The position numbers and the translations under genes were made by a program. This document shows, piece after piece, positions 61,627 to 64,000 of a DNA stretch of 64,000 nt. Positions within the stretch are counted from its first letter, which is position 1. Every line of letters starts with the position of its first letter. The notes below the pieces were generated by a model that worked only from the letters and a program-made list of their open reading frames with translations, ran no database searches and had not been told where the DNA came from. The stretch comes from Candidatus Rokuibacteriota bacterium (lineage in GTDB: Bacteria; Methylomirabilota; Methylomirabilia; Rokubacteriales; CSP1-6): NCBI GenBank assembly GCA_003220345.1, contig QHSC01000078.1:62001-126000 (forward strand), in the 5' to 3' direction.

Positions 61627-61670
61627 CGCTCCGGGCTCATTCCTCCGGTCTCATTCCTCCGGTCTCATTC
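61615..61670 (-). repeat. Four 14-bp tandem repeats forming coupled minigenes before the P450 gene
   Basis: Four 14-bp units (61615-61628, 61629-61642, 61643-61656, 61657-61670), the outer ones differing slightly. On the minus strand each holds an ATG (at 61668, 61654, 61640, 61626) and a GGAG. The first three ATGs open five-codon frames (MRPEE, MRPEE, MSPER), each ending in a TGA that overlaps the next ATG (ATGA). The DUF1272 stop overlaps the first ATG and the fourth ATG starts the P450 gene. Confidence 0.85.
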
Positions 61671-61913
61671 CATTGACGCGCACGGCGAATGTCTGACCAC
61701 CCGAGCCGTCGACGCGGGATGCTTGGTCAGCGCGTCCACGGGACGTATGGGCCGACGGACCAGCTCACCCCCGCAATTCGGACAGCGACCGCGCAGTGTC
61801 CCGTCCGCGCATGTCGCGCAGAAGGTGCACTCGAAAGAGCAGATGCGCGCCTCGGGCGAATCCGGAGCAAGGTCCCGGTCGCAACATTCGCAATTCGGCC
61901 GCAATTGGAGCAT
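61665..61913 (-). CDS. DUF1272 zinc-ribbon-like protein
   Basis: An 82-residue protein with the DUF1272 core MLQLRPNCECCDRDLAPDSPEARICSFECTFCATCADG...CPNCGGELVRRPIRP, rich in CxxC pairs that probably bind zinc. Family function is unknown. ATG 61913 is chosen because GGAGG lies 4 bases upstream and it matches the family start. The C-terminal tail beyond RRPIRPVDAL runs into the minigene repeats. It diverges from the radical SAM gene. Confidence 0.88.
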   Translation of the reverse strand: MLQLRPNCECCDRDLAPDSPEARICSFECTFCATCADGTLRGRCPNCGGELVRRPIRPVDALTKHPASTARVVRHSPCASME

Positions 61914-61997
61914 GGGTCCTCCAGGAGGCGGGTATCGACTCGTGCGGCAAGGATAGCTCATCTCCGCGTCTGTCCGGCGAGCCGTCCGGCCAGCAGG

Positions 61998-62022: not shown

Positions 62023-63525
62023 ATGAAATCGATCGAGAGACCTGCCGTGCCGGAAACGGTGGCCGCCCCACTGAGAGCAGACGGGGCGGTTCTCCTGCTG
62101 TCCTGCTACGAGCTCGGCCACCAGCCGCTGGCCCTGGCCTCACCGCTCGCCTTTCTCGAGCGCGCCGGCTTCGCGCCCGCGGCTCTCGACCTCTCCGTGG
62201 AGCCATTCGATCCCGGCCGCGTGACGCGCGCGCGGCTCGTGGCCATCTCCGTCCCCATGCACACGGCCCTCCGGCTCGGCACGCGAGTGGCGGAAGAAGT
62301 GCGGCGCGTGAATCCCGGCTGCCACGTGTGCTTCTACGGGCTCTACGCCTCGCTGAACGCCGACTACCTGCTCGCCAACGGCGGCGATTCCGTCCTCGGC
62401 GGTGAGTTCGAGGCGGCGCTGGTCGCGCTGGTGGAGGCGCTCGAGACGGGGCGTTCCGGACCCATCGAAGGCGTTCATCTGAGAGACCATCCCGCGAGGC
62501 CCGTGCTGAAACGGATGGCCTTTCTCCCCCCGAGCCGGGACACGCTGCCCGCGCTCAAGAGCTATGCTCACCTGGAGGAAAACGGGTCGCGTCGTCTCGT
62601 CGGCTACGTCGAGGCCAGCCGCGGGTGCCTCCACCATTGCTTGCACTGCCCGATCCCGCCCGTCTACGGCGGGCGTTTTTTCGTGGTTCCGCAGGAGGTC
62701 GTTCTTGCGGACATCGACCGGCTCGTGCGTGCCGGCGCCACCCACATCACCTTCGGGGACCCGGATTTCCTCAATGGGCCGGGCCACTCGATGGCGGTGA
62801 CGCGCGCCGTTCACGCGGCGTGGCCGTCTCTCACCTTCGACTTCACGGCCAAGGTGGAGCACATCCTGAGGCGACCGGAGCTCCTGCCCGAGCTCCGGCA
62901 GCTCGGCTGCCTCTTCATGATCTCGGCGGTGGAGTCGCTCAGCGACACCGTACTCGCGAACCTCGAGAAGGGACACACGCGGGCGGACATCCTGCCCGCC
63001 CTCCGGATCGTCAGGCAGGCGGGCATCGCCTTCCGTCCCACCTGGGTGGCCTTCACGCCCTGGACGACCCTCGAAGACTATCTGGACATGCTCGACTTCA
63101 TCGAGCGGGAAGGGCTGATCGATCACGTCGATCCCGTCCAGCTCACCCTCCGTCTTCTCGTGCCGCCCGGCTCCGCGCTCCTGAGCCGGGAGGCGATCCG
63201 GCCCTCTCTCGGGCCGCTCGACCGCGCGTCCTTCAGCTATCGCTGGAGCCATCCCGACCCCCGCATGGACGATCTCCAGCGGCGGGCGAGCCGCGTCGTG
63301 GAAGGCTCCGTCAGCGAGGACGCCGGCGCGACCTTCTACAAGGTCAAGACGCTTGCCCGCTCGGCGGCGGGGCGCCCGCTCGATGTCGAGCCGGCACTGG
63401 CCCCCGACCGGCGGCGCCCTCCCAGGCTGACCGAGGCGTGGTTCTGCTGAGCGGAGCCTACCCAGGGCCAGTTCGGCCCTCTCCGACCGATGGTCCACGA
63501 AGGCGTCGCCGGCGTCGTCACCTGA
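62023..63525 (+). CDS. B12-binding-like radical SAM protein with C-terminal Cys-Sec tail (probable selenoprotein)
   Basis: The frame to the first UGA encodes 475 residues. A cobalamin-binding-like Rossmann N-terminus (about 20-150) is followed by the radical SAM core with the cluster motif CLHHCLHC (Cys202, Cys206, Cys209), FGDPDFL and later helices. The UGA at 63448 follows a Cys codon, and the same frame continues Ala-Glu-Pro and 21 more codons to a TGA at 63523-63525. That gives 500 residues with Sec at 476 and a ...WFCUAEP tail. A SECIS-like hairpin follows the UGA. I recall, without searching, an NCBI family named for CUAEP/CCAEP-tail radical SAM proteins. Substrate unknown. If UGA is a plain stop the gene ends at 63450. 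Confidence 0.82.
63453..63484 (+). promoter_or_regulatory. SECIS-like hairpin just after the in-frame UGA
   Basis: AGGGCC (63464-63469) pairs with GGCCCT (63475-63480) around the five-base loop AGTTC; an outer GGAG/CTCC pair (63453-63456 with 63481-63484) can extend it across an internal bulge. The loop starts 19 bases after the UGA and has G as its second base. Both fit bacterial SECIS rules (apical loop about 16-37 bases after UGA, G among the first two loop bases). Confidence 0.65.
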
Positions 63526-63551
63526 GCGCTCCGCGCTTCGCCGCCCACTCA

Positions 63552-63560
63552 TGCTAGATT
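63552..63560 (+). promoter_or_regulatory. Extended -10 promoter element before the flavin oxidoreductase gene
   Basis: TGCTAGATT is an extended -10 (TGn plus TAGATT) ending 7 bases before the ATG at 63568, almost the same as the element before meaB and again implying a leaderless mRNA. No Shine-Dalgarno sequence is visible. Confidence 0.4.
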
Positions 63561-63567
63561 TGCCGAC

Positions 63568-64000
63568 ATGAAGTTCGGGATCTTCTACGAGCACCAGCTA
63601 CCGCGACCGTGGGCCTTCGACAGCGAGCATCGGCTCCTGCAGGACTCGCTGACCCAGATCGAGCTGGCCGACCGGCTGGGCTACGACTACGCGTGGGAGG
63701 TCGAGCACCACTTCCTGGAGGAGTACTCGCACTCCTCCGCGCCGGAAGTCTTCCTCGGGGCGGCCAGCCAGCGCACGCGCCGCATCCGTCTCGGCCACGG
63801 CATCATCCAGCTTCCCACCAATCATCCGATTCGCGTGGCGGAGCGCGTGGCCACCCTCGATCTCCTGAGCGGGGGTCGCGTGGAGCTGGGGCTCGGCGAA
63901 GGGCAGGGGCCCGTGGAGCTCCATCCCTTCGGGCGGCGCGTGCGCGACAAGCGCGACGTGTGGGAGGAAGCGGTGCGGGTCCTCATCCCGTGCTTCACCC
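63568..64000 (+). CDS. LLM-class (luciferase-like) flavin-dependent oxidoreductase, N-terminal part
   Basis: The first 144 codons are present and run off the right edge without a stop. MKFGIFYEHQLPRPWAFDSEHRLLQDSLTQIELADRLGYDYAWEVEHHFLEEYSHSSAPEVFLGAASQRT and the following RIRLGHGIIQLPTNHPIRVAERVATLDLLSGGRVELGLGEGQ are typical of bacterial luciferase-like monooxygenases that use reduced FMN. Substrate cannot be told from this part. It may or may not be functionally linked to the radical SAM gene 42 bases upstream. Confidence 0.9.
   Translation, partial: MKFGIFYEHQLPRPWAFDSEHRLLQDSLTQIELADRLGYDYAWEVEHHFLEEYSHSSAPEVFLGAASQRTRRIRLGHGIIQLPTNHPIRVAERVATLDLLSGGRVELGLGEGQGPVELHPFGRRVRDKRDVWEEAVRVLIPCFT

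Follow-up and report, generated by a model that had tools for sequence, protein, structure and literature searches.

Results

A radical SAM gene with an in-frame UGA. The window, by which we mean the whole 64,000-nucleotide stretch of DNA that was analyzed, carries a radical SAM gene with an in-frame UGA close to its end (Table 1). Up to and including this codon, the frame occupies positions 62023 to 63450 (475 sense codons), and the last residues before the UGA, RLTEAWFC, end at 63447. A sequence-only reading of this DNA had described a frame that ends in Cys and UGA and continues as Ala-Glu-Pro for 24 sense codons before a TGA, which we confirmed base by base. With selenocysteine (Sec) at the UGA, the residues around it read WFCUAEPTQGQ and include the motif C-[U/C]-A-E-P. 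The protein consists of an N-terminal B12-binding-like domain, a radical SAM domain (with C202, C206, and C209), and the C-terminal tail. The gene is followed downstream by a luciferase-like monooxygenase gene, which was dropped as a candidate partner because it occurs in few loci. Upstream, a DUF1272 gene (61665 to 61961, minus strand) encodes a small, Cys-rich protein and is divergent from the radical SAM gene.

Table 1. Features of the predicted selenoprotein gene (window positions)
Feature	Position	Strand	Remarks
CUAEP-tail radical SAM protein, very probably a selenoprotein	62023..63522	+	500 aa including Sec476; 475 aa when ended at the UGA
UGA codon, predicted Sec476	63448..63450	+	Cys or Sec codon here in all homologues whose tail is readable; selABCD in the genome
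Tail after Sec, AEPTQGQFGPLRPMVHEGVAGVVT	63451..63522	+	24 codons; A477, E478, P479, and Q483 invariant, others variable
Predicted bacterial SECIS hairpin	63464..63480	+	6-bp stem, loop AGUUC, within the coding sequence; covariation
True stop, TGA	63523..63525	+	Next in-frame stop past the UGA

The window genome is a bin, and its contamination is estimated at 7.27%. We consider that the radical SAM gene belongs to this bin despite the contamination, because a selD gene lies on the same contig and because a different genome of the window's genus (L130) carries a gene 86% identical to it.

Family and fold. The extended protein matched NCBIfam model NF040546, "CUAEP/CCAEP-tail radical SAM (seleno)protein", with 699.9 bits (cut-off, 500) over profile positions 1 to 467 of 468. 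Since the match covers all but the final model position, the model already spans the UGA and the tail. The match was full length, including WFC-U-AEP, and no family-defining feature differed in the window protein, which is therefore a member of a known selenoprotein family with no assigned function and not the founder of a new one. The family name had been given correctly in the sequence-only reading, as had the absence of a function for it. None of the papers searched mentions the family under the CUAEP name, and the NF040546 accession is absent from the main text of a 2026 review. The expectation that ordinary annotation would lose the tail held for one database entry but not for the family model, which reads past the UGA: on the plasmid of Thermomicrobium roseum DSM 5159 (NC_011961.1; L142:6938-8374), the annotated CUAEP/CCAEP-tail protein ends at the UGA. 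The frame there runs on as AEPLEDPSGPVASQ, and judging by its sequence the deposited protein probably stops short of Sec.

The radical SAM domain was recognized by PF04055 (49.9 bits, above the cut-off), and the three cysteines of its CX3CX2C motif were invariant over 52 aligned homologues; the B12-binding domain (PF02310) scored 30.1 bits, under the cut-off of 32.1. An AlphaFold model had a mean pLDDT of 90.7, with confidence falling over roughly the final 20 residues. Its best fold matches were AprD4, OxsB, and TsrM (TM scores of about 0.55 to 0.67), solved radical SAM enzymes with a B12-binding domain that share a similar fold but only 15 to 19% identity with the window protein. The fold matches include B12 enzymes and also AprD4, which is not known to need B12. 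We read the architecture of the enzyme as a Rossmann domain of the B12-binding-like type and a radical SAM core resembling class B. Other radical SAM enzymes with Sec are listed in reviews (TIGR04167 and TrsS, NF045646), but they form other families, and neither was among the matches of the window protein. No relative was found in the viral contigs searched.

Conservation of the tail. Homologues were scanned in one genome per species, which yielded 80 loci in ten phylum-level groups, assigned from the record titles: Rokubacteria, Methylomirabilota, Gemmatimonadota, Planctomycetota, Nitrospirota, Acidobacteriota, Verrucomicrobiota, Poribacteria, Nitrospinota, and Chloroflexota. All 79 homologues with a readable tail carried WFC-[U/C]-AEP (57 with Sec, 22 with Cys), which is the outcome that the sequence-only reading had named as support for its proposal. 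In the window's class, the gene was found above the cut-off in 63 of 95 genomes, and every tail-reaching match, among the matches listed, had exactly one in-frame TGA. One genome of the window's genus (G058) has two CUAEP genes (G058:C120 and G058:C135), each with an in-frame TGA.

The motif C-[U/C]-A-E-P was invariant over the 52 aligned homologues, and besides the SAM triad the invariant Cys columns were C28, C475, and position 476 (U or C). A477, E478, P479, and Q483 were also invariant in the Cys-type homologues, so the RNA hairpin does not account for the conservation of AEP and Q483. In a tree of 88 proteins, the distribution of Sec and Cys requires three or more switches from one to the other. 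Two Cys-type genes (L067 and L073) occur in genomes with selB; Cys versions are not confined to organisms lacking Sec.

A hairpin downstream of the UGA. The 6-bp stem and 5-base loop proposed earlier are present: AGGGCC (63464 to 63469) pairs with GGCCCU (63475 to 63480), beginning 13 nt after the UGA, and the loop (63470 to 63474) has G at its second position. Taken alone, this hairpin was unremarkable (z = −1.67; 12 of 200 shuffles were as good), and an Rfam scan of positions 63400 to 63600 gave no match near the gathering score. Since folding energy gave no significance for this one sequence, the argument for Sec is built on comparison.

Across 38 Sec-type genes, the stem was paired in 94.7% of cells, 36 of which were changed on both sides. 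The covariation score was 0.483, against 0.262 in shuffles, and none of 500 shuffles reached it; when the partner was slid by one base, pairing dropped to 52 to 57%. In contrast, 21 Cys-type genes showed 38% pairing at the same columns, which is the shuffle level, and the folding z-scores of Sec and Cys genes differed (P value = 2.5 × 10−7). In a further group, of 17 Sec genes, the hairpin was kept with a 4-nt loop and with the stem offset by one base against the codons, which turns QFGPL into QLAL in the protein. Loop sequences in Sec genes were AGUU(N) or AGGU. At the A3 loci with this offset stem (e.g., L038:2816-2854), the RNA structure is thus preserved at the expense of the protein sequence.

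The strong covariation in Sec genes, together with chance-level pairing in Cys genes, indicates that the hairpin in the window is more than a chance structure. As in bacterial SECIS elements, it stands shortly after the UGA and has a G in the upper loop, and it is lost in Cys genes. These comparisons strongly support the prediction that the hairpin, although it lies in the coding region, would make ribosomes with SelB and tRNA-Sec read the UGA as Sec.

Selenocysteine machinery. The window genome encodes selA, selB, selC (tRNA-Sec), and selD, the genes that the sequence-only reading had proposed to look for; selB sits at the start of a contig and is cut by the contig end. Across the homologues, selB was found above the cut-off in 19 of 21 Sec-type genomes and 2 of 19 Cys-type genomes (Fisher test, P value = 4.7 × 10−7), and the two Sec-type genomes without it had partial selB-like pieces below the cut-off. 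The SelD encoded on the window's contig (L141, G000:C105:8494-9435) has an in-frame UGA in CAGUASK, followed by a hairpin, and as read from its sequence it is a second selenoprotein of the window genome. Another selD-like gene (C175:664-1575) lies within a 746-aa frame that has no UGA.

Gene neighborhood. Neighboring genes were clustered without prior choice and then counted over the 80 loci. Three products recurred: a protein of the ATP-grasp type with an L-amino-acid ligase C-terminal domain (LAL_C2; 41 loci), an Nfu/NifU-type Fe-S carrier adjoining the gene (33 loci, several phyla), and a DUF169 protein (28 loci). Their genes lie mostly directly downstream on the same strand, in varying combinations, with a few upstream or on the other strand. 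At the window locus, neither Nfu nor ATP-grasp is adjacent, and the ATP-grasp gene is on another contig. Within the window's class, 60 genomes had both the radical SAM and the ATP-grasp gene, 8 the former alone, 5 the latter alone, and 22 neither, a co-occurrence (P value = 1.3 × 10−10) that was computed ignoring relatedness and with fragments at contig ends counted as present. At one locus (L085:8001-10274), a Cys-type CUAEP frame has no stop and leads on into a DUF169 protein; this is possibly a natural fusion or possibly a stop lost in a draft genome.

Relationship to ArsL. The second-best family match of the window protein was ArsL (NF040542; 319.8 bits, below the cut-off of 450). Among the close relatives, ArsL alone has a known role; it acts in the biosynthesis of the arsenic-containing antibiotic arsinothricin. 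In Escherichia coli, it converted arsenite to hydroxyarsinothricin with formation of a C-As bond, and the prediction is that arsenic receives the 3-amino-3-carboxypropyl (ACP) group of SAM (PMC8552651). ArsL proteins have the same domain order as the window protein and about 32 to 38% identity to it, and they form a clade separate from the CUAEP proteins in the tree of 88 proteins (support, 100). Four of four ArsL-type proteins end in RCCLKC, with vicinal cysteines as in the CUAEP/CCAEP tails, whereas the CUAEP motif of the window protein is followed by about 20 more residues. The CC of ArsL aligns with the CU or CC of the CUAEP family, although the intervening region is too little homologous for this to be proof. 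Among solved structures, no helpful relative of ArsL was found.

An ATP-grasp protein is encoded at three of the four ArsL-type plasmid loci inspected, as it is near CUAEP genes. The ATP-grasp proteins of the two kinds of loci are genuinely similar, but they are only about 27% identical and belong to a large superfamily, and we therefore draw on the likeness as a parallel without counting it as proof. The arsenic neighborhood of ArsL (ArsM, ArsR, and ArsQ) does not recur at CUAEP loci: a weak ArsR match and an ArsM-like match occur at one Chloroflexi locus (L108), and a distant, weak match occurs at another locus (L068). As arsenic genes are not general near CUAEP loci, we do not claim an arsenic substrate.

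Discussion

From the comparison of sequences, we regard it as virtually certain that the UGA is decoded as Sec and are highly confident that the frame running through it encodes a true CUAEP/CCAEP-family selenoprotein. That the UGA is instead a true stop, with the conservation downstream of it due to chance or a remnant, might be argued from the hairpin, which is not significant without comparison and has no Rfam match. It is an extremely improbable reading given the AEP tails in all readable homologues, the replacement of Sec by Cys, the covarying hairpin that is lost in Cys genes, and the co-occurrence with selB.

The Sec assignment extends a family that is already in a public model library. 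What we add is its context at the family level, that is, its neighbors (Nfu, ATP-grasp ligase, and DUF169) and its kinship to ArsL, which makes a functionally uncharacterized family testable. The family spans at least ten phylum-level groups, mostly uncultured, and has natural Sec and Cys versions; its sister family, ArsL, has a known substrate and chemistry, and T. roseum DSM 5159 is a named strain with a Sec-type gene.

We think it likely that the tail takes a direct part in catalysis. As to how, we tentatively favor an ArsL-like group transfer, drawn by analogy from the vicinal chalcogen residues near the C-terminus of a related enzyme and from the amino-acid-ligase-like neighbor that both families have. 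A [4Fe-4S] cluster on C202, C206, and C209 would cleave SAM to a radical, possibly 3-amino-3-carboxypropyl. Cys475 and Sec476 in the C-terminal tail would hold an acceptor that is soft and thiophilic (a species of a metalloid, of selenium, or of sulfur), and the radical would be joined to this acceptor. The amino-acid product would then be ligated by the ATP-grasp L-amino-acid-ligase-like enzyme, and Nfu would keep the Fe-S cluster supplied. More speculatively, there might be a widespread bacterial pathway in which the Cys-Sec tail of the radical SAM selenoenzyme holds a metalloid or chalcogen, an unusual amino acid is built on it, and the ATP-grasp ligase, dedicated to this step, couples the amino acid into a small molecule, as a selenoprotein-based counterpart of arsinothricin synthesis. 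If the ArsL-like reading is true, Sec would have a new role in radical chemistry.

The main rival to ArsL-like transfer is a redox tail of the kind found in thioredoxin reductases. Cys-Sec would either pass electrons between the active site and a reductant or reduce a disulfide or selenenylsulfide that arises during turnover. This role had been suggested in the sequence-only reading; the Cys-Sec pair is real, but the thioredoxin-reductase role is an analogy only. The vicinal pair near a flexible C-terminus, the invariance of C475, and the exchange of Sec for Cys only are in keeping with it. Set against these are the lack of a prominent thioredoxin- or flavin-type partner among the conserved neighbors and the handling of arsenite by ArsL, the nearest family, with a comparable CC tail. 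We consider a redox tail about as probable as ArsL-like transfer, each at less than even odds. The kinship to ArsL points to a metalloid- or chalcogen-binding tail at least as well as to a redox tail.

NfuA restores the Fe-S cluster that LipA spends in each turnover, and the CUAEP enzyme might likewise insert a chalcogen, with a persulfide or selenide on the tail delivered into a C-H bond of the substrate and Nfu restoring an Fe-S cluster spent per turnover. The frequent adjacency of Nfu across several phyla speaks for such insertion, as does a CDGSH-type Fe-S protein encoded divergently upstream in 13 Rokubacteria loci. A second full set of three cysteines that could hold an auxiliary cluster is, however, missing from the invariant columns, and the DUF169 group mostly lacks an adjacent Nfu, and we judge chalcogen insertion to be unlikely. 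The CDGSH-type protein, named by its sequence motif and not by a family search, is encoded just upstream of the radical SAM gene at L063:7732-7980 and at the 12 other Rokubacteria loci.
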